Positions 7,217 through 45,443 of a stretch of 64,000 nucleotides of DNA are shown in pieces. Every line of letters starts with the position of its first letter. The stretch's first letter is position 1. This DNA comes from Microtetraspora fusca (GTDB lineage Bacteria > Actinomycetota > Actinomycetes > Streptosporangiales > Streptosporangiaceae): the NCBI RefSeq assembly GCF_001570365.1, contig NZ_BBYK01000045.1:186001-250000 (forward strand), written 5' to 3'. The notes below the pieces were generated by a model. That model was given only the letters and a program-made list of their open reading frames with translations, was not told the origin of the DNA and did no database searches. Made by a program: the position numbers and the translations under genes.

Positions 7217-8130
7217 CACGCGTTCTCCTTGAGAAGAGCCGCGCCGGAGGGGGCCGCGGCGGTGGTGAGGGCGACGAACGCGTCCTCCAGGTCGGCCGGG
7301 GTGACCTCGATGTCCCGTACGGCTCCCGCCTGGGCGAGGGCGATCACGGTCGCGTCCGCGTCGGTGCTGCGCAGGGTGGCGCGGTCGCCGTTGATCTCCA
7401 TCCCGGTCACGCCGGGGAGCCGGCCCAGCCAGGCGGCCTCGCCGGAGACGGTCACCCGGACGGTCGTGGCGGCCACGACGCGCTTGATCTCGGCGCTGGT
7501 GCCGTCCGCCGCCACCCGGCCGCGGTTGATCACGATGACGCGGTCGGCCTGCTCGTCGGCCTCGTCGAGGTAGTGCGTGGAGAACAGGATGGTCCTGCCC
7601 CGATCGGCGAAGCCGCGCATGCTCGCCCACAGCTCCCGTCTGGCCTCGACGTCCAGGGCGGCGGTCGGCTCGTCGAGGACGATCAGCTCGGGGTCGCCCG
7701 CGATCGCCATCGCGAACCTCACCCGCTGCGCCTGGCCGCCGGAGAGCCGGTCCACCCGCCGGTCGGCCAGCGCGGTGAGCTGGGCGAGGGCGAGGATCCG
7801 GTTGAGCGGGAGCGGCTCGCGATAGGTCCCGGAGACGAAGGTGAGCAGTTCGCGCACGGTGACCCGCGCGATGATCCCGCCCTCCTGCGGCATGGCGCCG
7901 ACCCTGCCCTGCCGTACGGCCCGCTCGGGGTCGCCGCCGAAGAGGGACGCCGTACCCGAGTCGGGCGGGAGCAGTCCGAGGAGCATGCCGATGGCGGTGG
8001 ACTTGCCCGCGCCGTTGGGGCCGAGGAGCGCCACGGTCCGGCCCCTGGGGATGGAGAGCGTCAGGCCGTCCGCGGCCCGGGTGGAGCCGAACGTCTTGGT
8101 GACGTTCGCCAGGGATGCTGCGATTTCCAT
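7216..8130 (-). CDS. ABC transporter ATP-binding protein (ABC-2 exporter)
   Basis: Nucleotide-binding subunit of 304 residues and first gene of the exporter/two-component operon. Walker A GPNGAGKST, the Q-loop in AMPQEGG, signature LSGGQAQRV, Walker B LIVLDEPTAALD and the H-loop in FSTHYLDEAD are all present. A C-terminal regulatory segment of about 80 residues follows. ATG at 8130 is chosen because it directly precedes the first beta-strand (ANVTKTFGSTRAAD); an in-frame upstream start at 8196 would add 22 non-conserved residues. Confidence 0.92.
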   Translation of the reverse strand: MEIAASLANVTKTFGSTRAADGLTLSIPRGRTVALLGPNGAGKSTAIGMLLGLLPPDSGTASLFGGDPERAVRQGRVGAMPQEGGIIARVTVRELLTFVSGTYREPLPLNRILALAQLTALADRRVDRLSGGQAQRVRFAMAIAGDPELIVLDEPTAALDVEARRELWASMRGFADRGRTILFSTHYLDEADEQADRVIVINRGRVAADGTSAEIKRVVAATTVRVTVSGEAAWLGRLPGVTGMEINGDRATLRSTDADATVIALAQAGAVRDIEVTPADLEDAFVALTTAAAPSGAALLKENA

Positions 8131-8303
8131 GGTTGGAACGCTACGGAGACGCGGCTCGCGGCCGTAGATCGAGGCATCCCGGATTGGGCGGGACAAATGT
8201 CACGGGACCGGCTCGTCACGACCCGGTGGGCGCGCAGCAGACGGAGTGCGTGCGACACCGCCGGCTCGCCGACCCCGGCACGGTGCTCGCGGTACCCGGA
8301 CGG

Positions 8304-8498
8304 TCAGGTCGGGTACGGAGGCTGGTTCTCGGGAGGAACGCCGCCTCCCTTGCCGCCGCCCTTCTTGCCCTTGTCCGTGCCGTGCGGCCGCCCCTTGCGC
8401 GCCTTCCCGACCCCGGACCGCGCCTTGGTCTCCGCCGCGTCCTGCGTGGCGCCCCCGCGACCGGAGCGGCGTGCCTCGGGCTGCTGTGGCTGGCCCAT
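8304..8498 (-). CDS. small basic Gly/Lys-rich protein of unknown function
   Basis: 64-residue protein starting at ATG 8498 behind a very strong ribosome binding site (GGGGGAGGAACG just upstream), which is the main reason to call it. It is hydrophilic and strongly basic, with a tail rich in Lys and Gly (DKGKKGGGKGGG) before a proline-rich end (PPENQPPYPT). No domain recognised. Disordered nucleic-acid-binding or spore-associated proteins look like this, but no role can be assigned. It lies between the exporter operon and the BON-SRPBCC gene, all on the minus strand. Confidence 0.6.
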   Translation of the reverse strand: MGQPQQPEARRSGRGGATQDAAETKARSGVGKARKGRPHGTDKGKKGGGKGGGVPPENQPPYPT

Positions 8499-8653
8499 CG
8501 TTCCTCCCCCACTGCCGTTTTCTCCACGCCGTGGAGCAGGGATCCATCTGCCCTCCGATGGGAACGCCATGCACGGGGGGCCGGAAAGGCCGGCGCGGAT
8601 CGTGCCCTCCCTCATGTCGGGGTCACGTTCCCCCGTCAGGGACCGATCGGGGC

Positions 8654-9877
8654 TCAGGCGTGGGTGACGGCCGGCTGGACGGCCGCCTTCTCGCTCTCCG
8701 CGAACGTCTTCAGCCGCATCAGGTCCTCCCGGAGCTTGTGGACCGGGTCCACGCCGAGCAGCTTGGCCACGGCGTGGCCGATCGCGCCGACCGCCGGGTT
8801 GTAGGCCATCTGCACCTGCACGCGGGTGCGGCCCTCGCCCTCGGGCGTCAGCCGCAACGCGCCCGCGTGCGCGAAGAGCTGCCCCTCGGGCGTCTTCCAG
8901 GCGATCTCGCGGTTCTCCTCGCGCCGGGTCTCCACGGCGTCGAAGCGGACGCACGTCCCGGCGGGGCCCGCGATCACCCAGTGGGACCGGCCGTCGCCGA
9001 GCAGGCGGACCTCGAGGACGTCCGGCATGATCTCCGAGTAGCGCCGGTAGTCGCTCACCAGCCGCCAGAGGGTCTCCGGCGAGACGGCGATGGAGATCGC
9101 GTCCTGGAGGTCGATCGCGCGCCGTCCCGAGCTGATCCCGGTGAGCCGCCGCAGGGACAGGTTCGTCGCCGCGCGCAGGGCGAGGACCGTGCAGGCGGTG
9201 CGCGCCGCCCACGAGAGCGGACGCGGCAGCCTGCCGGTCAGTCCCCACGCCAGCGCCGCGCAGCAGGCGACGAACAGGCGCGCGCTCGGCGACCACCGCT
9301 GCTGCAGCAGCTCGGGCACCGGCCTCCTCGGCCGGGACGTGCCCTGCAGCCCCGGCGTGTCCCCGGCGTCGTCGTGCGCCCTCCAGCGGAGGTCGACCCG
9401 CCGCACACCCGGGACCCGCCGCACCGCGCGCCGGGCCCGCTGCTGCTCGGCGCTCAGGACGTCCCCGGTCAGCGTCACGACGCCGCCGTCCACGTGGACC
9501 TCCACCGCGTGCGGATGCGAGACGTAGCGGCCGAGCTCCGCCCGTACGCGTTCATACAGGATCCGGTCGTCCACGGCGGATCTCGCGCGCAGGCGGTGCC
9601 GGGCGCCCGCGACCGCGCCGCGACCCCGTTTCGGTAGATCGCTGGAGAGGACGGCGACGCCGTTGTACACCTTGTGCGTGGCGTGCGCGGCCTTGTCGCG
9701 CACCCGCGCCCGGCGGGTACGGCCCCGGTCGGGATCGCACAGGTACTGGATCACCGCGCCGGCGCAGACGCCGGCGCCGGCCGCGCCGAGGGTCCGGCGC
9801 AACGGTGTCCGCTCCACGAGCACGATGTCGGCGTAGCGGTCCCGTTGAGGATGAGCGGAAGTACGCATAATGACCAT
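8654..9877 (-). CDS. membrane-associated BON-SRPBCC two-domain protein
   Basis: About 407 residues. An N-terminal hydrophobic segment (TLGAAGAGVCAGAVIQYL) is followed by a basic DPDRGRTRRARVRDK motif of the kind seen after YtxH-like anchors. A BON domain follows at about residues 100-165 (VRAELGRYVSHPHAVEVHV, GDVLSAEQQRARRAV). A second hydrophobic stretch near residues 200-240 precedes an SRPBCC/START-like domain from about residue 265 (SIAVSPETLWRLVSDYRRY), which has a hydrophobic ligand cavity. BON domains bind phospholipid or envelope surfaces, so an envelope lipid role is plausible. ATG 9868 is an alternative start. Confidence 0.75.
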   Translation of the reverse strand: MVIMRTSAHPQRDRYADIVLVERTPLRRTLGAAGAGVCAGAVIQYLCDPDRGRTRRARVRDKAAHATHKVYNGVAVLSSDLPKRGRGAVAGARHRLRARSAVDDRILYERVRAELGRYVSHPHAVEVHVDGGVVTLTGDVLSAEQQRARRAVRRVPGVRRVDLRWRAHDDAGDTPGLQGTSRPRRPVPELLQQRWSPSARLFVACCAALAWGLTGRLPRPLSWAARTACTVLALRAATNLSLRRLTGISSGRRAIDLQDAISIAVSPETLWRLVSDYRRYSEIMPDVLEVRLLGDGRSHWVIAGPAGTCVRFDAVETRREENREIAWKTPEGQLFAHAGALRLTPEGEGRTRVQVQMAYNPAVGAIGHAVAKLLGVDPVHKLREDLMRLKTFAESEKAAVQPAVTHA

Positions 9878-13971: not shown

Positions 13972-15828
13972 TCAGCGCGCGGCCTCGGGCGACCCGCGCA
14001 TGGTGAAGTTGTCGAAGCCCACCTTGAGCGTCGCCGTGGTCTTCTCGCCGACCCGGGCCATGATGCCGACCAGGCCGCTCGGCAGCGGCCGGGCGTCGAC
14101 CACCGACACGGTGCGGGATCCGTTGACCCACATGGTCAGCTCGGCCCCCTCCTGGGTCGCCCGGCACCTGGCCTGGAGGCTGGTCGGCTTCGACGCGTCC
14201 GTCTGCTTCGCCGGGGACCGATCGTTGCCGACGTCGTTCGCGACCTTCGCGTCCGTCTCCACCGCGGCGGTAAGGTCACCGCCCGCGTCCTCCACGACCT
14301 TCCTGATCCGCGCCCGCCCGGAGGTGTCGAGGAGGAACTCGTACCGGGTGACCTTGCTCCCCTGCGGCTTCTGCCGGCAGTACAGGCCGTACTCGCCGGT
14401 GCCGCCCGTCACCCCCATGACCGTGGTCTCCACGCCCAGCAGGTAGTCATCGGGGACGGTCGGCGTCGGCGTCGCGTCGGGCGAGGGGCTCTGCGGCTCG
14501 GTGGTGAAGGGGATCGGGGCGTTCTCCCACAGGTCGTTCTGGTCCTCGCCGTAGGGCTCCAAGGCGTAGAAACCGCCCGGCGCGTAGCCCTGCCGGTGGT
14601 ACTTCTCGCCGGTGTAGGTGTTGCCCCAGCCGGTGCCGCTCCGGCTGAAATCGTCCTGGTAGAGCAGCGGCAGGTCGGTCGGCGGTCCGCCGGGGGCCAG
14701 CACCGCGTACAGAGCGACGCCGGCCGCGACGGCGAGCGCGGCGGCGCCCGCGCCGGCCATCAGCCGGTTGCGGCGGGTGCGGCGGGTGATCGAGGAGGAC
14801 AGCCGCGTGACGTCGGCGTCGGGCCGGGGGCCGGTCGGCGCCTCCGCCCCGAGCGCGGCCGGCGGGGACCAGGACGGCGGCCGCCCGTCCGGCGCGGAGG
14901 GCCGCGGCGCCTGCGCCGTGTACGCGGTCGTCCGCTGCGGCGCGGCGGGGACGGTCGCGGCGGTCTGCTGCCAGGTCGTCTGCACCGAGTGCGCGGCCTG
15001 CTCCGGCGCGGCGGCCCGGCCCACCATCTGGTCGAGGAGCTGCTGGGAGGTGGGCCGCCACTCGGGGTCCTTCGCCAGGGCCCGGCCGACCAGGTCCCGC
15101 AGCGCCGGTTCCAGTCCGTCGAGGTCCGGCTCGTTGTTGAGCACCTGGTACAGCACGGCGTGGAGGGTCTCGCCGTGGAACGGCGCGCGGCCGGTCGCGG
15201 CGAAGGCGACGAGGCAGCCCCAGGAGAAGACGTCGCAGGCCGGGGTGACCGGCTCGCCGCGCAGCACCTCGGGGGACATGTAGCGCGGGGTGCCGATCAG
15301 CTCGCCCGTGCCGGTGATCCCGCCGAGCGTGTCGCGGGCGCGGGCGATGCCGAAGTCGATCACGCGCGGGCCGACGGGTGAGAGCAGCACGTTCGACGGC
15401 TTGAGATCCCGGTGGATCACTCCGGCGCCGTGGATGGCGGCAAGCGCGGTCGCCACGCCCACGGCGAGGGCGTCCAGGCTGGAGCCGCGCAGCGGCCCCG
15501 AGGACTGTACGGCCTGCTCCAGGTTGGGGCCGGGGACGAACTCGGTGACGACGTAGAGCTGCTCACCGTCGAGCGCGGCCTCGATCACCGCGGCGGTGCA
15601 GAACCGGCGGACCCGGGAGGCGGCGTCGGCCTCGCGGCGGAAGCGCATCCTGAACTGCTCGTGCCGGCTGTATTCAGGGTTGATCACCTTGACGGCGACC
15701 CGCTGGCCGTCCGGGGACTCGCCGAGGTAGACCGTGCCCATGCCGCCCGCGCCGAGGCGTCCGAGCAGGCGATATGAGCCGATGTGAAGGGGGTCTCCCG
15801 GAGTGAGGTCGTTCACCACGCCATCCAA
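13972..15828 (-). CDS. receptor-type Ser/Thr protein kinase
   Basis: 618-residue PASTA-less eukaryotic-like kinase. Kinase domain is at residues 19-275: glycine loop GRLGAGGMG, Lys47 (VAVKVI), catalytic HRDLKPSN with Asp141, DFG Asp158, activation segment GTPRYMSPE. A Pro/Ala/Thr-rich juxtamembrane linker follows (about 280-350), then one transmembrane helix near residues 355-377 and a 240-residue outside domain. Its FSRSGTGWGNTYTG opening, WVNGSRTVSV and final GFDNFTMRG resemble concanavalin-like jelly-roll domains in other actinobacterial kinases. It lies just upstream of, and divergent to, the PknG cluster; a regulatory link is possible but not shown. Confidence 0.92.
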   Translation of the reverse strand: MDGVVNDLTPGDPLHIGSYRLLGRLGAGGMGTVYLGESPDGQRVAVKVINPEYSRHEQFRMRFRREADAASRVRRFCTAAVIEAALDGEQLYVVTEFVPGPNLEQAVQSSGPLRGSSLDALAVGVATALAAIHGAGVIHRDLKPSNVLLSPVGPRVIDFGIARARDTLGGITGTGELIGTPRYMSPEVLRGEPVTPACDVFSWGCLVAFAATGRAPFHGETLHAVLYQVLNNEPDLDGLEPALRDLVGRALAKDPEWRPTSQQLLDQMVGRAAAPEQAAHSVQTTWQQTAATVPAAPQRTTAYTAQAPRPSAPDGRPPSWSPPAALGAEAPTGPRPDADVTRLSSSITRRTRRNRLMAGAGAAALAVAAGVALYAVLAPGGPPTDLPLLYQDDFSRSGTGWGNTYTGEKYHRQGYAPGGFYALEPYGEDQNDLWENAPIPFTTEPQSPSPDATPTPTVPDDYLLGVETTVMGVTGGTGEYGLYCRQKPQGSKVTRYEFLLDTSGRARIRKVVEDAGGDLTAAVETDAKVANDVGNDRSPAKQTDASKPTSLQARCRATQEGAELTMWVNGSRTVSVVDARPLPSGLVGIMARVGEKTTATLKVGFDNFTMRGSPEAAR

Positions 15829-16274: not shown

Positions 16275-17438
16275 ATGAGCATCGACGGAGTCGACTTCGA
16301 GCTGCGTCGCCGTGCCGAGGAACGTGACAGGATCTCCGACGACCTGCTGGACCTCGACTCGCATCCGGGTTACCAGCTGCTCAAGGGTGCGCGGCTGACC
16401 GGTGAGACCCGGCGCCGCTGGGACGAGGCACAGTCCAGAGCGGTGACCCTGTGGTGGCTGTTCGACGCCTACCGTGGCGTGCTCGATCGCGCGCGGGAGC
16501 TCAGGGCCGGCAAGCCCGACCTGGCCGCGCTGACCGGGCTGCTCGCCGGCCCGTCCGTGGAGCTCAAACCGGAGAATGTGCCCGTCGAGAAGCGGTCCCT
16601 GCTGCGGGCCGCGGGCGAGTCGATCACGCTGGACACGGTGGTGGCGCGGATGGACGCCGCCTACCGTGACGTCGCCGAGACGGTCGCGGCCGCGGACGAC
16701 GCCTGGAGTGCGCTGCTCCCGCGGCTTGACGATGCCGATGTCGCCCGCCGCTCGGCTCAGGACCTGCTACGCGACCTGGACGGCAATGATCCGGATCTGG
16801 ACCGCATCGGCGCCGAGATCGATCGGATTCGCGCGGCGGTCACCACCGACCCGCTCGGCTCGACCACCCTGGGTGGTGAGCTCGACGGGTTGCTCGCCGA
16901 GCTCGCCGCCCGTCGTGGGCTGCTGGAGCAGGCCGCGCGGCTCCGGGCGGAGTACAGCGACCGGGCCCGCCGCCTCGGCGACCGCATCGCGCAGGTCGCC
17001 GAGGCCGAGAACGAGGCCCGCTCGGTCCGGGACACGGTGCTCGTCAAGATCGACTCACCCGCGCTGCCGGCGCTGCCGGACCAGGCCGCCGCGCTGCGGG
17101 ACCGGCTGAGCGCGCTGGATACGGCCGGCGACCGCTGGCTGGAGCTGGTCGAGCGGCTGACCGGGCTGGAACGGGCCGTGGACGAGGCGCTGGCGCGAGC
17201 GCGGACCGCGACCGAGGCGATGGCGGGTCTCATCGGCCGTCGTGACGAGCTGCGTGGCCGGCTGGAGGCTTACCACGCCAAGGTGGTCCGGCTCGGGCAT
17301 GCCGAGGACGCCGCGCTCGGTGAGATGTACGGCGAGGCCCGCGCCCTGCTCTGGACGGCACCGTGCGACCTGCGGCAGGCTACCGTCGCGATCACCGCCT
17401 ACCAGCGGGCGATCGGCCGGATCGGAGTGGCGGAATGA
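16275..17438 (+). CDS. coiled-coil protein opening the PknG operon
   Basis: 387-residue, almost fully helical, charged protein without signal peptide or membrane segment. Heptad-like stretches occur near residues 130-260 (LDRIGAEIDRIRAAV, GLLEQAARLRAEYSDRARRLGDR) and 275-350 (ALRDRLSALDTAGDRWLELV, ALARARTATEAM). ATG 16275 (MSIDGVDFEL) is preferred over an upstream frame extension. Its stop overlaps the PknG-like gene (ATGA), so the two are co-translated. No catalytic motif seen; a scaffold or adaptor for the kinase/phosphatase pair is an inference from position and structure. Confidence 0.85.
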   Translation: MSIDGVDFELRRRAEERDRISDDLLDLDSHPGYQLLKGARLTGETRRRWDEAQSRAVTLWWLFDAYRGVLDRARELRAGKPDLAALTGLLAGPSVELKPENVPVEKRSLLRAAGESITLDTVVARMDAAYRDVAETVAAADDAWSALLPRLDDADVARRSAQDLLRDLDGNDPDLDRIGAEIDRIRAAVTTDPLGSTTLGGELDGLLAELAARRGLLEQAARLRAEYSDRARRLGDRIAQVAEAENEARSVRDTVLVKIDSPALPALPDQAAALRDRLSALDTAGDRWLELVERLTGLERAVDEALARARTATEAMAGLIGRRDELRGRLEAYHAKVVRLGHAEDAALGEMYGEARALLWTAPCDLRQATVAITAYQRAIGRIGVAE

Positions 17439-19642
17439 TCAGATGCGCCCAGCCGGGGTGCGGCGGCACGGTGGAGGACGGTTACTGCGACGCCTGCGGC
17501 CTGGCCCCACAGCCGGAGCCGGATCCGGCACCGCCCTCGGCGCCGGCGACCAGACCGTCCATCCCGCTGGACATGTCGGGTACGGCCCGCACCGGTACGA
17601 GCCGGTCGAGCAGCCGGTCGAGCCGGGGCCAGCTCGGGATGGGCCTGGTCGAGGTGCCGGCCGTGCCGTACCGGGACCCGGCCGGGGTGGTGCTGGCCGA
17701 CGCCCAGGTGCCGGAGGACCGGCGTTTCTGCGGCAATCCCGACTGCGGCCGGCCGGTGGGCCGCCGCAGAGGTGACCAGCCGGGGCGGCCGGAGGGGTTC
17801 TGCCCGCACTGCGGCTGGCGGTTCTCGTTCACGCCCAAGCTCGCCGAGGGAGATCTCGTCGGTGGGCAGTACGAGGTCAAGGGCTGTCTGGCGCACGGTG
17901 GTCTCGGCTGGATCTACCTGGCGGCCGACCGGCACCTGGAGGGCCGGTGGGTGGTCCTGAAGGGGTTGCTCGACACCGGGGACGTGGAGGCGCTGGCCGC
18001 TGCGGAGGCCGAGCGGCATTTCCTCACCGCGATGGACCATCCGAACATCGTCAAAATCTTCAACTTCGTCACGCACCCCGACCCGGGCACCGGGACGATG
18101 GTGGGCTACATCGTGATGGAGTACATCGGCGGCGTGTCGCTCCAGGAGATGCTGCGCGCGCGGCTACGGGAAAGCGACAACCGCCAGGCGCTGCCGGTCA
18201 CCCAGGTCATCGCCTATGGGCTGGAGATCCTCAAGGCCTTCGGCTACCTGCACGATCAGGGCCTGCTGTACTGCGATCTGAAGCCGGGCAACGTCATTCA
18301 GGTGGAGGAGCAGCTCAAGCTCATCGATCTCGGTGCGGTGCGGCGGATCGACGATGCGGACAGCGCGGTCTACGGGACGGTCGGGTACCAGGCGCCGGAG
18401 ATCGCCTCCGACGGGCCGTCAGTCTGTTCCGACCTCTACACGGTGGGGCGCACGCTCGCCGTGCTGAGCTTCCCGTTCAGTCCTGTCAGCGGCGGGTCCG
18501 CCGCTCCGCTGCCGGCGATCGACCAGAGGTACGAGTCCTACCGCCGGTTCCTGGAACGGGCAACCGACTCCGAGCCCACCCGGCGGTTCCAGGGCGCGGC
18601 GGAGATGTCCGACCAGCTCGTCGGCGTGCTCAGGGAGGTGCGCGCCGCCGAGGTGGGCGTCCCCCACGCCGCGCAGTCCGGATTGTTCGGCCCGGAGCGC
18701 CGGGCTGTCGGAACCGAGCTCGCCCCGGCGGCCACGGGGCAGGTCTTCGGCCCGCTCGACCGCCTCGCCGCCGCGTCCGCGCTGCCCGTCCCCCTGGTGG
18801 ACCCGCTCGATCCCGCCGCCGGCCTGCTCGCGGGCCTCACCTCGGGAAACCCCGCCGAGCTGGTCACGCTGCTCGAATCCGCCCCGTCCACTCCGGAGAC
18901 CACGCTCGCGCTGATCAGGGTGCTCAGTGAGCTCGGCCGTCCGATCCCGGATCAGCTGCTCGCGGACGCCACCGGGCAGCTGCCGGGAGACTGGCGGATC
19001 TGGTGGTATCGGGGGGTCGGGCAACTGGCCTCGGGGGACCCGGAGCAAGCGGTGCGTATCTTCGACGGGCTCTACTCGTGGCTCCCCGGCGAGGCCGCGC
19101 CCAGGCTGGCCCTGGCATTCGCCCTCGAAGCCGGCGGAGCGGGCCAGGAGGCGGCTCGCCACTACGCGGCCATCTGGCAGACAGACCGGTCATACGTGAG
19201 CGCCGGCTTCGGCCTGGCCAGGCTCCGGCTGGCGGAGGGCGACCGCGCCGGGGCGACCGCCAGCCTGGACGAGGTGCCCGCGACCTCCATCCACCGCACC
19301 GCAGCCCAGGCGGCCGCAGTGGCGGCGGCCGTACGTGGATATGACCCTGCCGCAGGCGAGCTCGTCGCCGCAGGCGAGCGGCTGCGGAGCCTGAAGCTCG
19401 ACGCCCGGGACCGCGACGGGCTGCTCTCGGAGGTGCTGCGGAGCGCCCTTGGCCGGGTCACCACCGGTCAGGTCACCTCATCCGGGCAGGCGACGCTGCT
19501 GGGCACTCCGCTGCACGAGCAGGGTGTGCGCGCCGAATTGGAGCGCGTCTACCGGGCGCTGGCCAGATCGGCGCGATCCGCGGAGGAGCGGTACGACTTC
19601 GTCGATTTGGCCAACTCTGTACGCCCGAGGACGCTGTGGTGA
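17435..19642 (+). CDS. pknG: PknG-like Ser/Thr kinase with zinc-ribbon, rubredoxin-like and TPR parts
   Basis: 735 residues, close to mycobacterial PknG (750). Order: an N-terminal zinc ribbon (C4, C9, C19, C22) that M. tuberculosis PknG lacks; a disordered linker; a rubredoxin-like metal site (C99/C104 and C123/C126); kinase domain about 143-400 with Lys176 (VVLKGLL), YCDLKPGN in place of HRD (Asp281) and DLG (Asp298); then a helical TPR region (about 440-735) with SWLPGEAAPRLALAFALE. In mycobacteria, PknG phosphorylates the FHA protein GarA and controls 2-oxoglutarate use according to amino-acid supply. Here it is coupled by overlaps to a coiled-coil gene upstream and a PP2C gene downstream. 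Confidence 0.93.
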   Translation: MIRCAQPGCGGTVEDGYCDACGLAPQPEPDPAPPSAPATRPSIPLDMSGTARTGTSRSSSRSSRGQLGMGLVEVPAVPYRDPAGVVLADAQVPEDRRFCGNPDCGRPVGRRRGDQPGRPEGFCPHCGWRFSFTPKLAEGDLVGGQYEVKGCLAHGGLGWIYLAADRHLEGRWVVLKGLLDTGDVEALAAAEAERHFLTAMDHPNIVKIFNFVTHPDPGTGTMVGYIVMEYIGGVSLQEMLRARLRESDNRQALPVTQVIAYGLEILKAFGYLHDQGLLYCDLKPGNVIQVEEQLKLIDLGAVRRIDDADSAVYGTVGYQAPEIASDGPSVCSDLYTVGRTLAVLSFPFSPVSGGSAAPLPAIDQRYESYRRFLERATDSEPTRRFQGAAEMSDQLVGVLREVRAAEVGVPHAAQSGLFGPERRAVGTELAPAATGQVFGPLDRLAAASALPVPLVDPLDPAAGLLAGLTSGNPAELVTLLESAPSTPETTLALIRVLSELGRPIPDQLLADATGQLPGDWRIWWYRGVGQLASGDPEQAVRIFDGLYSWLPGEAAPRLALAFALEAGGAGQEAARHYAAIWQTDRSYVSAGFGLARLRLAEGDRAGATASLDEVPATSIHRTAAQAAAVAAAVRGYDPAAGELVAAGERLRSLKLDARDRDGLLSEVLRSALGRVTTGQVTSSGQATLLGTPLHEQGVRAELERVYRALARSARSAEERYDFVDLANSVRPRTLW

Positions 19643-20550
19643 GCGGCGCCTGTCCCGCCTGCGGGGCGCTGGTCTTGGTGGGCGAGGCGTTCTGCGAGCA
19701 ATGCGGCCACGCGCTGGGAGTCGCCGGCTGCACCGCGTGCGGCGCTCCGGCGGTCGGGGCCGACGGTTACTGCGAGAACTGCGGCATGCTCCAGCCCTCC
19801 GAACGCGACCACGTCGAGATCGAGCTGGAGGTCGCGGCCGGGGTGAGTGACCGTGGCCTGCGGCACAGCCGTAACGAGGACGCCATGGCGCTGACGGCGG
19901 TGGGCACGGCGGCGGACACGATGGCCGTGGGAGTGGTCTGTGACGGGGTCTCCACCTCGCTGCGCCCGGAGGAGGCGTCCCAGACCGCCGCCGACACCGC
20001 CGTGGCCGCCCTCGCCCAACAGCTGGGGGAGGGGGCCGACCCCGAGACCGCGACCCGGGAGGCGGTACGGCTCGCCGCCGAAGCTGTCTTCGCCCTGGCC
20101 GAGCAGGACGAAGACGCGCCCGCCTGCACCTACGTGTCGGCGGTGGCCGGCGGTCGGCAGGTCACGGTCGGCTGGGTGGGCGACAGCCGGGCCTACTGGC
20201 TCGGATCCGGCTCCGAGGTGCTGACCGGTGACGACGCCACCCCCGGGACGCACATGCTGACCGCCTGGCTGGGCGCGGACGCGGGCGAGGTCGTGCCGCA
20301 CATCCGTACGTTCACCCCGGACGGGCCGGGTGTGGTCCTGCTGTGCAGCGACGGCCTGTGGAATTACCACTCCGATCCGGCGGCGCTCGCGGCCGTCGCC
20401 CTGAACGCCACCCCCCGCGCGGCGGCACAGCGGCTCGTGCGGCTCGCGCTGGAGGCCGGAGGACACGACAACATCACCGTCCTGGTGATCCCTTTCGGAC
20501 CCGGGGATCAGTCCGAGGCCACCGCGGTCTTCCCGAAGGAGCAATCGTGA
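19639..20550 (+). CDS. zinc-ribbon PP2C-type Ser/Thr phosphatase
   Basis: 303-residue metal-dependent phosphatase. Two zinc ribbons form the first 55 residues (CPACG..CEQCG and CTACG..CENCG). The PP2C domain (about 65-300) has RHSRNEDA with Asp81, CDGVS with Asp102, VGDSRAYW with Asp182, SDGLWNY with Asp238 and GHDNITV with Asp277, so all metal ligands are present. GTG 19639 overlaps the kinase stop (GTGA). Its position makes it the likely opposing phosphatase for the PknG-like kinase and its FHA target. Soluble and cytosolic. Confidence 0.92.
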   Translation: MSGACPACGALVLVGEAFCEQCGHALGVAGCTACGAPAVGADGYCENCGMLQPSERDHVEIELEVAAGVSDRGLRHSRNEDAMALTAVGTAADTMAVGVVCDGVSTSLRPEEASQTAADTAVAALAQQLGEGADPETATREAVRLAAEAVFALAEQDEDAPACTYVSAVAGGRQVTVGWVGDSRAYWLGSGSEVLTGDDATPGTHMLTAWLGADAGEVVPHIRTFTPDGPGVVLLCSDGLWNYHSDPAALAAVALNATPRAAAQRLVRLALEAGGHDNITVLVIPFGPGDQSEATAVFPKEQS

Positions 20551-21836
20551 CCGACTTCACCATGCGCGTAGATCAGAACAAATACCTTCCTGCGGGAGGC
20601 GAGGAGGTGCACGCCATCGTCACGGTCGAGGCGAGCGGCCCGATCGAGCGCGCCCCCACGGTCGAGGCCGCCGAGATCATCATCGTCGACACCTCCGGCT
20701 CGATGTCGTACGACAAGATCGCCGAGGCGAGGAAGGCCGCGCGGGCCGCCATCGACACCCTCCGCGACGGCGTGTACTTCGCGGTCGTCGCCGGCAACCA
20801 CGAAGCCCAGATCATCTTTCCCGACCGGGCGGGGCTGGTGCCGGCGACCCCGGAGAGCAGAAACGCCGCGAGGGAGGCCGTCTCCCGCTTGGTGGCCGAA
20901 GGGGGGACGGCCATGGGCCGGTGGCTGCGTCGCGCCGCCGACCTGTTCAGCGATTACCAGCAGGCGTACCCTGGCGCGATCAAGCACGCCATCCTGCTGA
21001 CCGACGGCAAGAACGAGCACGAGCGCGCTCCGGAGTTCGCCGCGAACCTGGCGTACTGTACGGGGAAGTTCGTCTGCGACTGCCGCGGTGTGGGCGTCGA
21101 CTGGGTGGTCGCCGAGCTTCGCCAGATCGCCTCCACCCTGCTCGGCAGCGTGATGGACATCCGCCGGCCCGAGGACCTGGAGGCCGACTTCCGGGCGATG
21201 ACCCAGGCGGCGATGGGCAAGACGGTCGCGGACGTGGCGCTGCGCCTGTGGACGCCGCGGGCGGCGAAGCTGAACTTCGTCAAGCAGGTCTCGCCGACAC
21301 TGGAGGACCTGACCGGCCGCCGCACCGAGGTGGACGCGCTGACCGGCGACTACCCCACCGGAGCCTGGGGTGGTGAATCCCGCGAGTACCACATCAACGT
21401 GCGGGTGCCCGCCGGGAACGTCGGCCAGGAGATGCGCGCCGGCCTGGTGAGGCTGGTCCTGCCCGAATCCGGGGAGGTGCTGGCCAAGGGGAACATCCTG
21501 GCGCAGTGGAGCGACGACCCCGTCCAGTCGACCCGCATCAACCCCCGGGTGGCCCACTACACCGGCCAGCAGGAACTTGCCTCGCTCATCCAGGAGGGCC
21601 TGCAGGCCCGCACCGACGGCGACCTGGACACCGCGACCGCCCGGCTCGGCAAGGCACGCGGCATCGCCGAGAAGGCCGGCAACGAAGAGACCGCCAAGCT
21701 GCTCGACAAGGTCATCGAGGTCGACCCTGATACGGGAACCGCCCGCCTCCGGCGGGACGTTGACAAGGCGGACGAGATCGCGCTCGACACCCGGTCGGTC
21801 CGAACCGTCCGGATGCGTAAGGACCCGGAGGCCTGA
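20547..21836 (+). CDS. VWA-domain protein of the PknG operon
   Basis: 429-residue cytosolic protein. A von Willebrand A domain at about residues 40-225 has an intact metal-ion adhesion site: DTSGS at Asp48-Ser52, Thr in EGGTAMGRWL and Asp in LLTDGKN. A beta-rich segment follows (VRVPAGNVGQEMRAGLVRLV), then a helical C-terminus (ASLIQEGLQARTDGDLDTATARLGKARGIAEKAG) that looks TPR-like. GTG start overlaps the phosphatase stop (GTGA). Such proteins usually mediate metal-dependent protein assembly; a complex with the kinase, phosphatase and FHA protein is inferred. Confidence 0.9.
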   Translation: MTDFTMRVDQNKYLPAGGEEVHAIVTVEASGPIERAPTVEAAEIIIVDTSGSMSYDKIAEARKAARAAIDTLRDGVYFAVVAGNHEAQIIFPDRAGLVPATPESRNAAREAVSRLVAEGGTAMGRWLRRAADLFSDYQQAYPGAIKHAILLTDGKNEHERAPEFAANLAYCTGKFVCDCRGVGVDWVVAELRQIASTLLGSVMDIRRPEDLEADFRAMTQAAMGKTVADVALRLWTPRAAKLNFVKQVSPTLEDLTGRRTEVDALTGDYPTGAWGGESREYHINVRVPAGNVGQEMRAGLVRLVLPESGEVLAKGNILAQWSDDPVQSTRINPRVAHYTGQQELASLIQEGLQARTDGDLDTATARLGKARGIAEKAGNEETAKLLDKVIEVDPDTGTARLRRDVDKADEIALDTRSVRTVRMRKDPEA

Positions 21837-21838
21837 GC

Positions 21839-22507
21839 ATGGCGATCTGTCCGGTAGGGCACGACTCCGCGGACGAGGAATACTGCGACGTCTGCGGCGC
21901 GCTGATGGAGGGCACCCCAGCCGGCCCGGCCGCTTCGGCTCCGGCCGTACCGCCCGACGCCCACCAGATGGACGACTGTCCCGACTGCGGGGCACCACGT
22001 GGCGGCCGATTCTGCGAGAGCTGCGGGTACGACTTCGTGCTCGGCGGGGGGAACCGGGGGACGCCGCCCTCCATGTCCTCCACGCCGGCCACCCCGGCCA
22101 CGCCCGCCTCCGGCTGGGTCGCGGTGATCGCGGCGGACCGTGACCACTACGAGGCGATGATCGCGCAGGGCGGCCCCGACGCGGCCCGTGTCACGTTCCC
22201 GCCGTACTGCCCGGAGCGGCGGATACCCCTGGCCGGGCCCGAGGTCAGGATCGGACGGCGCAGCCAGTCGCGGGCGCTGACCCCCGAGATCGACCTGGCC
22301 GGACCGCCCGAGGATCCCGGCGTCTCCCACCTGCACGCGGTGCTGCTCGCACAGGCCGATGGGACGTGGCAGCTCGTCGACCCGGGATCCGCCAACGGAA
22401 CCCTGCTCAACGGCAAGACGGTGGAGCACAACGCGCTGATCCCGCTCGGCGACGGGGACCGCATACACGTCGGCGCATGGACCAGCATCACGGTGCGGAA
22501 GAGCTGA
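21839..22507 (+). CDS. zinc-ribbon FHA-domain protein, candidate GarA-like phospho-reader
   Basis: 222 residues. Two N-terminal zinc ribbons (CPVGH..CDVCG and CPDCG..CESCG), a Pro/Ala/Thr linker with possible phospho-Thr sites (TPPSMSSTPATPATPAS), then a C-terminal FHA domain at about residues 120-222. The FHA signature is complete: VRIGRRSQSR, VSHLHAVLL, VDPGSANGTLLNG. GarA of mycobacteria is an FHA protein with an N-terminal Thr motif phosphorylated by PknG; this protein has the same general plan with zinc ribbons added, but no GarA-type ETTS motif is visible. Starts 2 bp after the VWA stop. Confidence 0.9.
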   Translation: MAICPVGHDSADEEYCDVCGALMEGTPAGPAASAPAVPPDAHQMDDCPDCGAPRGGRFCESCGYDFVLGGGNRGTPPSMSSTPATPATPASGWVAVIAADRDHYEAMIAQGGPDAARVTFPPYCPERRIPLAGPEVRIGRRSQSRALTPEIDLAGPPEDPGVSHLHAVLLAQADGTWQLVDPGSANGTLLNGKTVEHNALIPLGDGDRIHVGAWTSITVRKS

Positions 22508-22508
22508 G

Positions 22509-23963
22509 ATGGCCGTTGTCACCCCCACCGCCGGCCCCGCGTCTGCGCCCGTCCCTACGCCCGCGCCTGTAGCCGCGCCTGCCCCCGCCTCATCGCCGCC
22601 GCGCGCTCCGCGGCTGCGAACGGTTCCTGGGCGGATCCGCGCCTGGACCGGTGCCGCCGTCCTCGCCGTCGGCCTGCTGTTCGCGCTGATGGGCGTGGCT
22701 CTGGGGCACGCTGGGGACGGGCTGCAGGCGATCGGGCACACAGCGGGCCCGCAGGTGGTGGCCACCGCCGACCTGTACTTCGCGCTGAGCGACATGGACG
22801 CTCAGGTGGCCACCGTGCTGCTGGCCGGCGAAGGGCGCGGGCCCGGCCGCCAGGCCGCGCTGGACCGCTACGACCAGCGCCGCGCGCAGGCCGACAGCGC
22901 CGTGCTGCAGGCCGCCGACCTGGCTCGCGGCGACCCGACGGGGCAGATGACCGTGCGCGCCGTACTCGACGGGCTCGGCCGCTACGAGCGGCTCGCGTCG
23001 CGCGCCCTGCTCCTGGACGAGCAGTCCCGGCATGCCGCCGGACCACCCTCGCAGCAGGCTCTCGATGTCTACCGCCAGGCCACCGACCTGATGCGGTTGG
23101 ACCTGCTGCCCAAGGCGTACAACCTCACGCTCGACAGCGGGACCGTCGTCAGGCACGCCTACGCGGCCGAGTCGTCCGCCGTGCTGGCGGGCCGGTTCTG
23201 GGTGGCGCTCGGTGGGGCGCTCGCGCTGGCCGTCCTGTTCGCGTTGCAGGTCTTCCTGTCCCGCAGGTTCCGCCGTGCGATCAACCCGGCGCTGCTGGCC
23301 GCCACCGTCGTCGTCGGCGTGCTGACCATCGCGGGAGTGCTCGTCCTGCAGCGGGTGTCCGACGATCTGCGGACGGCCAAGGAGGACGGCTTCGACTCGG
23401 TTCTCGTGCTGTCCCGGGCGCGCGCGATCGGAAACAGTCTGCACGGTGACGAGAGCAGGTATCTGCTCGACCCGCAGCGGGCGGACACCTACGAGCAGGT
23501 ATACCTCGACAAGTCCCAGTCGGTGCTCTACGTCCCCGGCGGGAACCTGGACAAGTACTACGCCGCGGTGGACGTCAGCGTCGCCGCCTTCCCCGGTAAG
23601 GCGGACTTCCTCGGCTTCTACGGCTCGGAGGCCGGTCGTATCACCCTGCCCGGCCAGCGTGAGGCACTGGCCAGGGTGCTCACGTTTTACCAGAAGTTCC
23701 AGCACGATGACCGGCAGATGCGGCGGTTCGCCACAGCGGGCAAGAGCGGGGACGCCGTGCGGCAGGCCACGGGTGCCTCGTTCGGGGCCTACGACGATGC
23801 CCTGGTCGAGTTGACGAAGCTGCACCGCCTGGCGTTCGACGACGCCGTGGCGGAGGGCGACCGCGCCCTCGGTGGCTGGAACCTTCTGCTGCCGGGGGCG
23901 GTGCTCGCCGCCGCCCTGCTGATCCTGGTCGGAGTCCGGCCCCGGCTCGCCGAGTACCGGTGA
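22509..23963 (+). CDS. glnX: GlnX-like membrane protein
   Basis: 484 residues with four transmembrane helices (about 45-68, 230-250, 258-282, 460-479) after a Pro/Ala-rich cytosolic N-terminus. Two large helical extracytoplasmic loops lie between helices 1-2 and 3-4 (ALSDMDAQVATVLLAGEG; DGFDSVLVLSRARAIGNSLHGDESRYLLD). This chemoreceptor-like layout matches mycobacterial GlnX, which with the lipoprotein GlnH senses aspartate/glutamate and activates PknG. Start lies 1 bp after the FHA stop. Best assigned by synteny and topology. Confidence 0.8.
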   Translation: MAVVTPTAGPASAPVPTPAPVAAPAPASSPPRAPRLRTVPGRIRAWTGAAVLAVGLLFALMGVALGHAGDGLQAIGHTAGPQVVATADLYFALSDMDAQVATVLLAGEGRGPGRQAALDRYDQRRAQADSAVLQAADLARGDPTGQMTVRAVLDGLGRYERLASRALLLDEQSRHAAGPPSQQALDVYRQATDLMRLDLLPKAYNLTLDSGTVVRHAYAAESSAVLAGRFWVALGGALALAVLFALQVFLSRRFRRAINPALLAATVVVGVLTIAGVLVLQRVSDDLRTAKEDGFDSVLVLSRARAIGNSLHGDESRYLLDPQRADTYEQVYLDKSQSVLYVPGGNLDKYYAAVDVSVAAFPGKADFLGFYGSEAGRITLPGQREALARVLTFYQKFQHDDRQMRRFATAGKSGDAVRQATGASFGAYDDALVELTKLHRLAFDDAVAEGDRALGGWNLLLPGAVLAAALLILVGVRPRLAEYR

Positions 23964-23970
23964 AGGGAAG

Positions 23971-24801
23971 ATGTTCATGGTCGCGCTGACCAGGAGGGGC
24001 GTTTTGCGGCATATCACCGCCTCGGTGCTGCTTGGGGCCGTAGCGCTGCTGTCGGCGACGGCCTGCGCCGCCAGTTCGTCGATCCTCAACAAGGATTCCC
24101 TGGTCATCGGAGTGAAGCCGGACCAGCCTGGGTTGGGGATGAAGAAGGCGGAGGGTGGGTTCGCTGGTTTCGACGTCGATGTGGCCGCCTACATCGCCCG
24201 CAAGCTGGGGAAGGACGCCAGGTTCGTCGCGGTGCCCTCGTCCGAGCGGGAGAAGGCGCTCATGGACGGCTCGATCGATCTGGTCGTCGCCACCTATTCG
24301 ATCACTCCGGAACGCAAGATGAAGGTGGCCTTCGGCGGGCCGTACTACGTCGCACACCAGGACACTCTCGTACGGGCCCGCGAGAGCGCGGTCAGCGGCG
24401 TGCGGGACCTGAAGGGGCGCAAGCTGTGCCAGGTGACCGGTTCGAACTCCTGGCGTCGGGTGAAGGAGGAACGGAAGGTCGCCGTGGAGCTGGTCGAGGC
24501 CGCCTCCTACAGCGAGTGCGTGTCCGATCTGAAGGCGGGGAAGGTGGACGCGGTATCCACCGACGACCTCATCCTGGCGGGCTTCGCCACCTCGGACCTG
24601 AAGATCATCAACGCGCCGTTCACCGACGAGCGGTACGGCGTGGGCATCCAGGCCGGGGATCTGGACGGCTGCGAGGCGGTCAACAAGGCCATCACCCAGA
24701 TGTACCTGGACGGAACCGCCAAGAAGCTGCTGCAGAAGTGGTTCGGGAAGTCCGGCCTGGCTCTCACCTTCACCGTCCCTCAGTTCGAAGGCTGCGGCTG
24801 A
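23971..24801 (+). CDS. glnH: GlnH-like solute-binding lipoprotein
   Basis: 276-residue type 3 extracellular amino-acid-binding protein. Lipoprotein signal peptide with lipobox ending SATAC (Cys about residue 31). The mature fold shows LVIGVKPDQPGLGM, GFDVDVAAYIARKLG, VATYSITPERKMKVAFGGPYY, LKGRKLCQVTGSNSW and ECVSDLKAGKVDAVSTDDLIL, where Arg and Asp contact the amino-acid backbone in the family. It has no ABC permease or ATPase nearby, so it probably serves as the sensor for GlnX and the PknG-like kinase rather than for transport. The second ATG at 23977 is an alternative start with better RBS spacing. Confidence 0.9.
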   Translation: MFMVALTRRGVLRHITASVLLGAVALLSATACAASSSILNKDSLVIGVKPDQPGLGMKKAEGGFAGFDVDVAAYIARKLGKDARFVAVPSSEREKALMDGSIDLVVATYSITPERKMKVAFGGPYYVAHQDTLVRARESAVSGVRDLKGRKLCQVTGSNSWRRVKEERKVAVELVEAASYSECVSDLKAGKVDAVSTDDLILAGFATSDLKIINAPFTDERYGVGIQAGDLDGCEAVNKAITQMYLDGTAKKLLQKWFGKSGLALTFTVPQFEGCG

Positions 24802-24849: not shown

Positions 24850-26463
24850 CTAACGGAGGGCCTTGAGGAAGGCGGCGGCGACCGGCGCGGCGACCTTCCC
24901 GCCGCCGCCCCCGCCCTCGACGACGACGGCGAAGGCCACGTCGCCGCGGTAGCCCATGAACCAGGCGTGGGAGTCCAGCTTCTCGCCGGTGCCGAACTCG
25001 GCCGTTCCGGTCTTGCCCGCCGTACCGGCGGGAAGGCCGGCGGAGCGTGCCGTGCCCTTGCTCACGACGGCCTTCATCATCGAGCGCAACGGCTCGGCGA
25101 CGCCGTCCGGCAGCTTTTTCGGCGCGACGTTCTGCTTGAGGTCGGGCACCAGGGTCGGCGGGCGCCAGCTGCCGTCCGCCACCGCGGCGGCGACCGTGGC
25201 GACGATCAGCGGACTCGTGGTGATCCGGGCCTGACCGAAGGACTCCGCGCCCAGTTCCGCGTCACTGGTCGCCTTGGGCATGCTCGCCTTGGTGGCGGGG
25301 ACGCCGATGTTGAGCGGCTGGTTGAAGCCGAGGTCGGAGGCGATGTCGTAGAGCTTCTGCGCGCCGAGCTTGGCCGCCGCGAGCGGGGCGAAGGTCGTGT
25401 TGCACGAGTGCGCGTAGGAGTCGAGGAACGACAACGCGCCGAACGCCTCGTGGTCGGAGTTGCGGATCTTCAGGCCGCCGACGGTGGCGGTCTCGGGGCA
25501 GGTGACCCGCGCCGACGGGGTCAGCCCCTCGGCCAGCAGGGCGGCGGCGGTGATGGTCTTGAACGTGGATCCGGGCGGGTAACGGCCGTCCAGCGCACGG
25601 TTGAAGCCGCCCACGTTGTTGACGACCGCGAGGATCTCGCCGCTGGACGGCCGTACGGCGACGAGCGAGGTGGGCTTCTCCACGTTGCGTACGGCGTCGG
25701 CGGCCGCGCGCTGGACCCGCAGGTCGAGGCTGGTCGTGATGTCGCGTCCTGCTACGCCCTTGATCGTCTTCAGCGTCTTGTCGCCGACCCGGATCTCGGT
25801 GGTCGGCGTGCCGGCCAGCCGCCTCTGGAACGTCTCCTGCAGGCCGCCGCGTCCGATGGCGTCGCCGGTCTTGTAGGCCGAGCCGAGAGCCTTGACGTCC
25901 TTGGCCGTCGCCTTGTCGAGGTAGCCGACGAGCTGCGCGACCGAGCCGCCCACGTCGCCGCCGTCGATGCGGTTCCCGGCGGTGTCGGTGATCTTGCCGC
26001 GGGCCGGCCAGGTCGTCTTGAGGGACAGGTGGTTCGTGCCGGTCAGCTCGGGATGCGCGGCGCGCGGGGTCCAGGCGACCTTCCAGTAGTGGTCCTTGAC
26101 CACGAGGTCGATCGTCCCGTCGTAGGCCCACTCGCCGACGTCCTTCAGCGTGGTCGTCGCGCGGTAGGCGGCGGTGGCCCGGTCGTCCCCGGACGGGGTG
26201 ACCGCGCCGAGGGCGACGGCGACGGCGGTCGCGCCAAGGTTCTTGGTGAGCTCGGCGTAGGCCGCGTCGAAGCCGGGCGCCTGCGCGGCCAGCTCCGCCT
26301 TCATCGCGGTCAGATCGCCCCGGGACCAGGCGTCGGTGAACCGCCGCGCGGTCTCCTGCGGGGTGCCTCTGGTGTGCAGGACGTAGTAGGCGCCGCCCGC
26401 CGCGCCGCCGGCCAGAACCACCGCGACGGCGGTTGAAATCGCGATCGTACGTCCTCGGGGCAT
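24850..26463 (-). CDS. class B penicillin-binding protein (transpeptidase) with NTF2-like N-terminus
   Basis: 537 residues. A signal anchor (residues 5-27) is followed by an NTF2-like MecA_N domain (about 33-145), a dimerisation domain and the transpeptidase domain (about 265-537). Catalytic motifs: SxxK at Ser299-Lys302 (PPGSTFKT), SxN at Ser353-Asn355 (SCN) and KTGTA at 484-488. It cross-links peptidoglycan on the outer face of the membrane. The MecA_N-like domain occurs in PBP2a and in many actinobacterial PbpA relatives and alone does not imply beta-lactam resistance. Convergent with glnH. Confidence 0.93.
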   Translation of the reverse strand: MPRGRTIAISTAVAVVLAGGAAGGAYYVLHTRGTPQETARRFTDAWSRGDLTAMKAELAAQAPGFDAAYAELTKNLGATAVAVALGAVTPSGDDRATAAYRATTTLKDVGEWAYDGTIDLVVKDHYWKVAWTPRAAHPELTGTNHLSLKTTWPARGKITDTAGNRIDGGDVGGSVAQLVGYLDKATAKDVKALGSAYKTGDAIGRGGLQETFQRRLAGTPTTEIRVGDKTLKTIKGVAGRDITTSLDLRVQRAAADAVRNVEKPTSLVAVRPSSGEILAVVNNVGGFNRALDGRYPPGSTFKTITAAALLAEGLTPSARVTCPETATVGGLKIRNSDHEAFGALSFLDSYAHSCNTTFAPLAAAKLGAQKLYDIASDLGFNQPLNIGVPATKASMPKATSDAELGAESFGQARITTSPLIVATVAAAVADGSWRPPTLVPDLKQNVAPKKLPDGVAEPLRSMMKAVVSKGTARSAGLPAGTAGKTGTAEFGTGEKLDSHAWFMGYRGDVAFAVVVEGGGGGGKVAAPVAAAFLKALR

Positions 26464-45255: not shown

Positions 45256-45443
45256 CGCGCCTGCTGCAGCGGCTGGGCCGGCCGCCCCTCTCACCGTCGC
45301 CGACACCCAGCGCCCCGCCATGGCCGAGCCGGACCCGCTCGACCGCAGCGCTGTTGGCGGAGGGCATCGTGCTCCCGTTTGAGGCGGACCTGCTCCGGCT
45401 CAAGACCCGTAAGCAGAACTGGACCTATCGGAAGGAATGGATC

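Follow-up and report, generated by a model that had tools for sequence, protein, structure and literature searches.

What does a PknG-type kinase do when it is encoded in one gene cluster with a phosphatase, a VWA protein and an FHA protein? Few bacterial Ser/Thr kinases have been studied as thoroughly as PknG, whose signalling is modelled on a three-gene operon, glnX-glnH-pknG. The question is raised by a stretch of 64,000 nucleotides from Microtetraspora fusca (assembly GCF_001570365.1, contig NZ_BBYK01000045.1, positions 186,001 to 250,000; hereafter the window), in which seven consecutive genes on the forward strand code for a helical protein, PknG, a PP2C phosphatase, a VWA protein, a zinc-ribbon/FHA protein and the sensor proteins GlnX and GlnH. 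This seven-gene unit is a widespread actinobacterial operon and, from sequence comparisons, probably represents the ancestral form of the PknG operon. The VWA protein is modelled with the fold of ArnB, a component of an archaeal nutrient switch, and its gene adjoins that of an FHA protein with the make-up of the ArnB partner ArnA. We suggest that the VWA and FHA proteins might form a second, operon-encoded output of PknG, a mechanism to which, as a whole, we give an even chance.

The seven-gene operon and its distribution

The operon starts with the gene of a 387-residue protein (16275..17438), the only product for which no Pfam or NCBIfam family scored above cut-off; the six others were identified by these models. 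Its AlphaFold2 model (predicted local distance difference test score, pLDDT, 92) consists of long helices and has no match in the PDB at E<=0.001, and its gene neighbours pknG in relatives as well. The second gene (17435..19642) codes for a bona fide PknG with an N-terminal zinc ribbon, followed by rubredoxin, kinase and TPR domains. It matches PF16919 (PknG_rubred, 87.7 bits), PF00069 (Pkinase) and PF16918 (PknG_TPR, 274.2 bits) over cut-off and aligns with structure 2pzi at 521.9 bits; its catalytic columns K176, D281 and D298 are identical in 154/154 aligned sequences. The Ser/Thr phosphatase gene (19639..20550) codes for an N-terminal double zinc ribbon and a PP2C domain (Pfam DZR and PP2C_2), whose metal-site Asp columns hold Asp in 127-129 of 129 sequences. 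The genes of the VWA protein (20547..21836), the FHA protein (21839..22507), GlnX (22509..23963) and GlnH (23971..24801) follow. The junctions are, in order, three start/stop overlaps (ATGA, GTGA and GTGA) and gaps of 2, 1 and 7 bases, exactly as an earlier note made from the sequence alone had described them. That note had also assigned the seven same-strand genes to these families, and all the reading frames are present and, except for the first, agree with Pfam and NCBIfam. Its view that sensor, writer, eraser and reader are encoded in one unit is borne out by the gene identities and the tight, conserved cluster. 'Phosphorelay', the term that it used, is wrong for these Ser/Thr kinase, PP2C and FHA parts, as none of the seven products is a His-Asp relay protein.

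The operon is bounded at both ends, since the flanking genes, for an AfsK-like kinase (13972-15828) and a penicillin-binding protein (24850-26463), lie on the reverse strand. From their spacing, the seven genes are probably transcribed as a single unit. A scan for sigma-70 promoters returned none, which is uninformative on transcription in such a GC-rich organism, and the same scan gave one terminator-like site at the operon, on the opposite strand and under the shuffled mean.

We searched for PknG_TPR in three draws of genomes. Among 396 genomes of the phylum, 64 had a match at E<=0.001, as did 91 of 150 from the family of the window and 151 of 393 from the class (above cut-off, 47, 86 and 149, respectively). 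Sixty regions were hand-picked from these matches, between one and four from each genus, with contig ends mostly avoided, and gene order was assigned using profile models built from the fetched loci. The exact order helical-pknG-pp2c-vwa-fha-glnX-glnH was present in 24 of the 40 own-family loci; L017 has it in one reading, and is split by domain coordinates in the profile-model count. Eighty named loci were further collected through a VWA alignment and thus contain the VWA gene by construction. The exact order occurs in 39 of them, and in 24 others the glnX-glnH pair is located upstream of helical-pknG-pp2c-vwa-fha. Most of the latter (19/24) belong to Streptomyces, Kitasatospora, Streptacidiphilus or Actinacidiphila; two are from Kibdelosporangium, two from Saccharothrix and one is from a metagenome bin. 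Incomplete sets make up the other 17 loci, five of which have no PknG in the stretch. The expectation of the earlier note that the order would be conserved in relatives thus holds exactly for the majority of own-family loci, and the same genes are found together in other families of the class, with Streptomyces as one example, where the sensor pair has moved upstream. Because the order recurs across many genera, the cluster reflects more than chance. A larger set is also found in Nocardia seriolae (L143), and the core set is found outside the class in L168, where the glnX and glnH matches are on the other strand. Locus L171 harbours a PP2C-VWA-FHA trio (7091-9622) with no PknG-like kinase domain found within its 19.5 kb region.

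VWA_3_C, one of the Pfam families of the VWA protein, is nearly confined to genomes with PknG: among the 393 class genomes, 101 of the 105 with VWA_3_C also have PknG_TPR, a descriptive count only as the genomes are not independent. Conversely, 50 PknG genomes lack VWA_3_C, of which 36 are of f4, a Mycobacteriaceae-like group as judged from gene content. Nineteen f4 loci were fetched in two rounds: 13 are glnX-glnH-pknG, four have pknG alone and two (L155 and L157), chosen for the VWA_3_C matches in their genomes, have the larger set. Both first-round loci of group f11 are also of the three-gene type.

To see which form is older, 68 hand-picked PknG proteins were placed in a tree by a quick method (support by the Shimodaira-Hasegawa-like approximate likelihood ratio test only, midpoint root), and rows with a PP2C or FHA match were scored as seven-gene. 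The 17 three-gene (13) and lone (4) f4 rows form one clade with a support of 100, nested among the seven-gene rows, with L155 and L157 as nearest neighbours (support 88). The textbook three-gene operon is thus probably a reduced form, and the notion in the earlier note that the mycobacterial module 'appears here fused' with further genes is probably backwards. Loss of the PP2C, VWA and FHA genes in f4 and other three-gene lineages is the simplest reading and, on a tree with a midpoint root only, one that we consider quite probable. The loci L064/L065 and L070, also labelled three-gene, are placed elsewhere in the tree; the glnX and glnH matches of L070 are on the other strand. If the three-gene operon is reduced, there would be a second, unstudied branch of PknG signalling in Streptomyces and related bacteria, antibiotic producers among them. 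Two f4 genomes (L152-L158) have four PknG_TPR matches each, with seven-gene sets beside three-gene operons (L155 with L152, L157 with L156) and lone PknGs in one of them.

The VWA protein and its FHA neighbour

The VWA protein matches Pfam VWA_3 and VWA_3_C, and is 96% and 95% identical to the VWA proteins of M. malaysiensis and M. glauca, respectively. Its AlphaFold2 model, computed from 17 aligned sequences that all match VWA_3, VWA, VWA_2 and VWA_3_C, has a pLDDT of 89.1 and shows the tripartite architecture of ArnB, with a vWA domain inserted in a beta-sandwich and a C-terminal helix bundle. The top Foldseek match is 4fx5, an orphan structure from Catenulispora (TM-scores 0.92/0.93, 53% identity). 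Places two to four are taken by the ArnAB complex of archaea and by vWA2, a paralogue of ArnB; for the ArnAB structure 8s05, the E-value is 4.8e-21 and the query TM-score (TMq) 0.65. The likeness of ArnB to 4FX5 has been remarked by the authors of the ArnAB work (PMC6509490; PMC12852372), with no mention of the gene neighbours of 4FX5 in the portions of these papers at hand. If our reading is true, it would provide an operon context for the protein family of this actinobacterial structure, at the level of the family rather than of the neighbours of the 4FX5 gene itself.

Conservation was determined on 120 distinct VWA sequences with scores of at least 400. The residues of the metal-ion-dependent adhesion site (MIDAS), D48, S50, S52, T121 and D153, are kept in 120/120. 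A Ser/Thr cluster in the C-terminal tail, the proposed phospho-acceptor (residues 413-424; 21783..21818, forward strand), is nearly invariant, with S417 in 118/120, T420 in 119/120 and T415 in 107/120. We considered the tail as an exact copy of the [DE]-T-x-S site of OdhI and dropped this idea; because T415 is missing in 13/120, our proposal is built on S417 and T420. The tail shares with the last phosphopeptide of ArnB a pattern of Ser-x-x-Thr followed by basic residues at the same end of the protein, a tentative likeness. It was surveyed in 134 VWA loci with scores of at least 200, of which 126 have the FHA gene and eight do not. Where the FHA gene is present, the tail was found by pattern in 123 loci and as Ser-x-x-Thr by eye in L031 and L119; L020 is tailless. 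Among the FHA-less loci, there is no match to the tail pattern in L037, L043, L048 and L167, a match outside the tail in L054, and a kept tail in L130, which lies at a contig end and in which FHA was not found, and in two loci discussed below. The VWA protein is the likeliest candidate substrate of the extra branch of the operon. Four of the FHA-less loci (L043, L048, L054 and L167) hold paralogous pairs of a divergent PknG-like kinase and a VWA protein, PP2C and FHA not being found; the C-terminal tail is replaced there by a cysteine-rich, zinc-ribbon-like end.

Several variants have lost parts of the protein. In L020 (~6963-8180, reverse strand), a single open reading frame fuses the VWA beta-sandwich and helix bundle to the zinc ribbon and FHA domain, the vWA domain and the tail both being missing. 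In three loci of another genus (L026, L175 and L176), the vWA domain is missing from residue 46 to ~221-226, and the residues up to 424 align; L175 keeps the Ser-x-x-Thr, which is eroded in L026 and L176. The fourth genome of that genus (L174) codes for a full-length VWA protein.

The FHA gene begins two bases after the VWA gene. Its product matches the FHA domain at 47.3 bits and DZR at 20.6 bits, under the cut-off of 27.3; the cysteines of the putative ribbon (C4, C16, C19, C47, C50 and C59) are conserved in 104-107 of 108 sequences. G139, R140, S163, H166 and N186 are invariant (108/108), and FHA residues of this type bind phosphothreonine. Thus, as in ArnA, a zinc ribbon precedes a phosphothreonine-competent FHA domain, beside a VWA gene.

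This protein is distinct from GarA/OdhI, the FHA protein phosphorylated by PknG (PMC8546545; PMC9769921): it scores 21.9 bits with the OdhI model, the cut-off of which is 200 bits, and no N-terminal ETTS-type motif was seen. The earlier note had suggested that the operon tunes metabolism, which is therefore not supported for its FHA protein; the genome has a separate GarA-like gene. The best OdhI-model gene of the genome (L008, 1390-1893) is on the same contig, ~27 kb before the first base of the window, and scores 189.3 bits, just under the cut-off, over model positions 3-129 of 130. Its product combines Cys residues in a pattern resembling a zinc ribbon with an FDTTSTIS stretch and a C-terminal half of the FHA type. 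The PknG-GarA branch is thus probably kept here, since PknG is known to phosphorylate GarA/OdhI and a GarA-like gene is present. That gene is apparently followed by a MerR-type gene, as seen by eye in the sequence. The PP2C tail carries SEATAVF, which recalls the ETTSVF of OdhI; besides the window, tails of this type were seen in its closest genera (L012, L013, L024, L032 and partly L027) but in none of the other tails inspected, and the motif was not retained as an OdhI-like phosphorylation site.

The presence of the PknG zinc ribbon co-varies with that of the VWA gene. Over 146 loci, 119 have both and 20 have neither, an agreement of 139/146. Most of the seven mismatches have particular features: the ribbon of L137 is in fact present and was cut off by the search window, L069 and L167 have variant ribbons, L093 has a possible frame problem, L020 has a fusion that still includes the beta-sandwich and bundle of VWA, and L035 keeps only a degraded remnant of VWA. 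VWA, FHA and the PknG ribbon are jointly absent from the scored f4 rows of the 17-row clade, from L064/L065, and from L172 and L173, relatives of L020 in which VWA and FHA were not found, PP2C is kept and PknG has no N-terminal ribbon. These counts leave out loci at contig ends, with VWA far from pknG or with long-branch paralogues (L034, L178, L067, L071, L084, L121, L130, L054, L056 and L070), loci without a 500-bit PknG match, and L154, the kinase start of which was not recognised. The ribbon was scored with a broader pattern, picked after misses had been seen and matched by 7 of 2920 shuffles, used alongside alignment columns; two narrower patterns scored 32 and 38 VWA loci as ribbonless and were dropped as unsuited to the spacing in Streptomyces. 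With identical PknG cores collapsed (87 of the 146 rows), the tree offered only five independent VWA changes for pairing; on average, the ribbon followed VWA in 2.5 of them and went against it in 0.0. This co-variation is suggestive of docking on the VWA beta-sandwich, without amounting to proof.

A candidate switch and its alternatives

The sensors provide the proposed input. GlnX belongs to the NCBIfam subfamily NF058618 of signal-transducing membrane proteins (292.9 bits, cut-off 250). GlnH is a family 3 solute-binding protein (SBP_bac_3, 109.9 bits) that aligns with the solved GlnH 6h1u at 110.4 bits. It retains the equivalents of five of the seven residues that contact Asp in the solved protein (roles from PMC6069109), namely R147, T162, S164, R169 and D250. 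The R147 equivalent is Arg in 142/142 aligned GlnH proteins, and that of D250 is Asp in 63 and Asn in 11 of the 74 GlnH proteins of the downstream type. The position of W232 depends on the type of locus, being Tyr in 74/74 downstream-type proteins, Trp in 14/15 upstream three-gene ones and Gln in 24/41 upstream seven-gene ones. Acidic amino acids are the likeliest ligands of the window GlnH as predicted from these residues; the ligand may differ in Streptomyces-type upstream loci, given the Gln at the W232 position in 24/41.

We propose the following mechanism. Extracellular GlnH would sense acidic amino acids and signal through GlnX to PknG, which would have two outputs, GarA, encoded elsewhere, and the operon-encoded switch. 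The VWA protein would serve as a platform, the C-terminal T-x-S-x-x-T tail of which PknG may phosphorylate. The zinc-ribbon/FHA protein might then bind the tail phosphothreonine and tighten the complex, and PP2C would reset the switch. By analogy with the zinc finger of ArnA on ArnB, the zinc ribbons of PknG, PP2C and the FHA protein may attach to the VWA protein, with the beta-sandwich as the probable site, and the helical protein could be a further scaffold. From the operon parts, a phosphosite, a reader, an eraser and a docking element can each be predicted specifically.

A number of observations weigh against this mechanism. The VWA protein has no significant sequence link to ArnB (8s05_A, E 0.43), and none of the 14 Pfam families matching at E<=10 is named after ArnB; hence, we say that it may work like ArnB, not that it is ArnB. 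Its fold is also common to Sec23/24 and ITIH, and the ArnB blueprint is described as widespread, mostly without a tie to multi-site phosphorylation (PMC12852372), which speaks against taking the fold by itself for a switch. Conservation of the tail is similar to that of the protein core and no higher (rank 96 of 416 windows along the protein), which discards it as the most conserved stretch, and AlphaFold2 models it as ordered. It is kept in L029 and L120, which have neither FHA nor PP2C, and L019 is a plain exception that keeps the PknG ribbon without VWA. The sign test of ribbon against VWA is not significant (median p 0.25), nor is it under either of the two narrower ribbon patterns; that of FHA against VWA, run with L053 also left out, gives a median p of 0.125, not significant either. 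In GlnH, the equivalents of W232 and K161 are Tyr and Ala. Finally, at least one of the seven genes was not found by the models in 15 of the 40 own-family loci.

Two other explanations of the same genes are unlikely in our view. In the first, the substrate would be in cis: PknG would phosphorylate a Thr in the N-terminal half of the operon FHA protein, PP2C would reverse this, and the VWA protein would be a MIDAS-dependent scaffold only. PknG does act on an FHA protein recruited via its N-terminal segment (PMC8546545), and the linker of the window FHA protein has Thr-Pro repeats. That linker, between zinc ribbon and FHA domain, is not conserved in a 17-row alignment, the score with the OdhI/GarA model is very low, and the conserved Ser/Thr cluster sits in the VWA tail.

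The second, which we likewise regard as improbable, takes GarA as the sole output of PknG, with PP2C acting on GarA and the VWA, FHA and helical proteins assembling PknG and PP2C under GlnX at the membrane. It agrees with the GarA-like protein and its FDTTSTIS motif being encoded elsewhere, and with the persistence of glnX-glnH-pknG in lineages without pknG-adjacent PP2C, VWA and FHA genes. It leaves unexplained why the phosphothreonine reader is invariant and the VWA tail nearly so, and the two genomes that carry the seven-gene set beside a three-gene operon (L155/L152 and L157/L156) argue against it.

Triads of a kinase, a PP2C and a VWA-type protein occur with TerY. A stress or conflict triad of the TerY or GTPase-system kind, lying near PknG by chance or through shared regulation, is nevertheless a very improbable account of the operon: zinc-ribbon kinase, PP2C and vWA triads occur in actinobacterial GAP1-N2 GTPase systems (PMC7159879) and the L171 trio has no nearby PknG-like kinase, but the window kinase is a bona fide PknG with sensors alongside, genomes with VWA_3_C are PknG genomes in 101/105 cases, and PADLOC, run on the operon proteins except GlnH, gave only generic kinase models for the PknG kinase domain and weak matches, of 18.8 bits for the helical protein and 18.3 bits for PP2C, with VWA, FHA and GlnX unmatched. 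On the same PADLOC results, we did not retain the operon as a defence system.

The switch that we propose would have a close counterpart in the archaeal Arn system, the kinases of which are ArnC and ArnD. ArnA consists of a zinc finger, which contacts the ArnB beta-sandwich, and an FHA domain that binds the C-terminal phosphothreonines of ArnB (PMC12852372), and the state of ArnAB is set by a kinase with a TPR-like part and by PP2A in response to nutrients (PMC12852372; also PMC6509490). The common features are the tripartite VWA fold, an adjoining zinc-ribbon/FHA partner, a TPR-bearing kinase, a phosphatase, a C-terminal Ser/Thr cluster and a nutrient input. In contrast to Arn, the phosphatase here is a PP2C rather than PP2A, there is no archaellum, and there is no significant sequence link except in the FHA domain; for ArnC, an OB and a TPR-like part have been reported ahead of the kinase domain. 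That this is a bacterial Arn-type switch, driven by PknG, reset by PP2C and fed by an amino-acid sensor, which was present in the ancestral PknG operon and lost by most mycobacteria, corynebacteria and their kin, which keep the kinase, sensor and GarA branch, is a tentative proposal to which we give somewhat less than an even chance. If true, it would tie a nutrient switch of archaea to one of bacteria, with a bearing on whether pairs of VWA and zinc-ribbon/FHA proteins are an ancient device common to both or evolved twice.

Three bacterial systems are also comparable. Like the mycobacterial and corynebacterial glnX-glnH-pknG operons, for which GarA/OdhI is encoded at another site, the window operon codes for a PknG with rubredoxin and TPR domains, a GlnX family protein and a GlnH-type sensor, in a genome with a GarA-like protein. 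Unlike them, it has four more genes (for the helical, PP2C, VWA and zinc-ribbon/FHA proteins), downstream sensors, an extra N-terminal zinc ribbon in PknG, and a GlnX outside the mycobacterial and corynebacterial equivalog NF041460 (52.6 bits, cut-off 780). The PpkA-PppA-Fha1 locus of the Pseudomonas H1 type VI secretion system also brings together kinase, PP2C, FHA and vWA (PMC3224232; PMC1262709), but there, the kinase itself contains the vWA domain and secretion is the output, whereas the scanned flanks here hold a kinase and a penicillin-binding protein gene. The GAP1-N2 triads share the zinc-ribbon kinase, PP2C and vWA, in actinobacteria; in contrast, no GTPase is among the families of the operon, and PknG, GlnX, GlnH and FHA are unnamed in the portion of that report at hand (PMC7159879). 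Our literature search, which covered parts of the sources, found no publication that treats PknG with PP2C, VWA and FHA together.

Neighbouring genes

Upstream of the operon, the AfsK-like Ser/Thr kinase gene is transcribed away from it, and the penicillin-binding protein whose gene adjoins the end of the operon has an N-terminal domain of the MecA_N type. ARAGORN called a tRNA-Ala (cgc) gene at 15036-15128 on the forward strand, within the kinase gene of the opposite strand, and this call is probably spurious. Farther along the window, an open reading frame on the forward strand (43914-46190) matches both an S41 peptidase with a PDZ domain and an ABC transporter ATPase, and is followed by a gene for an FtsX/MacB permease.

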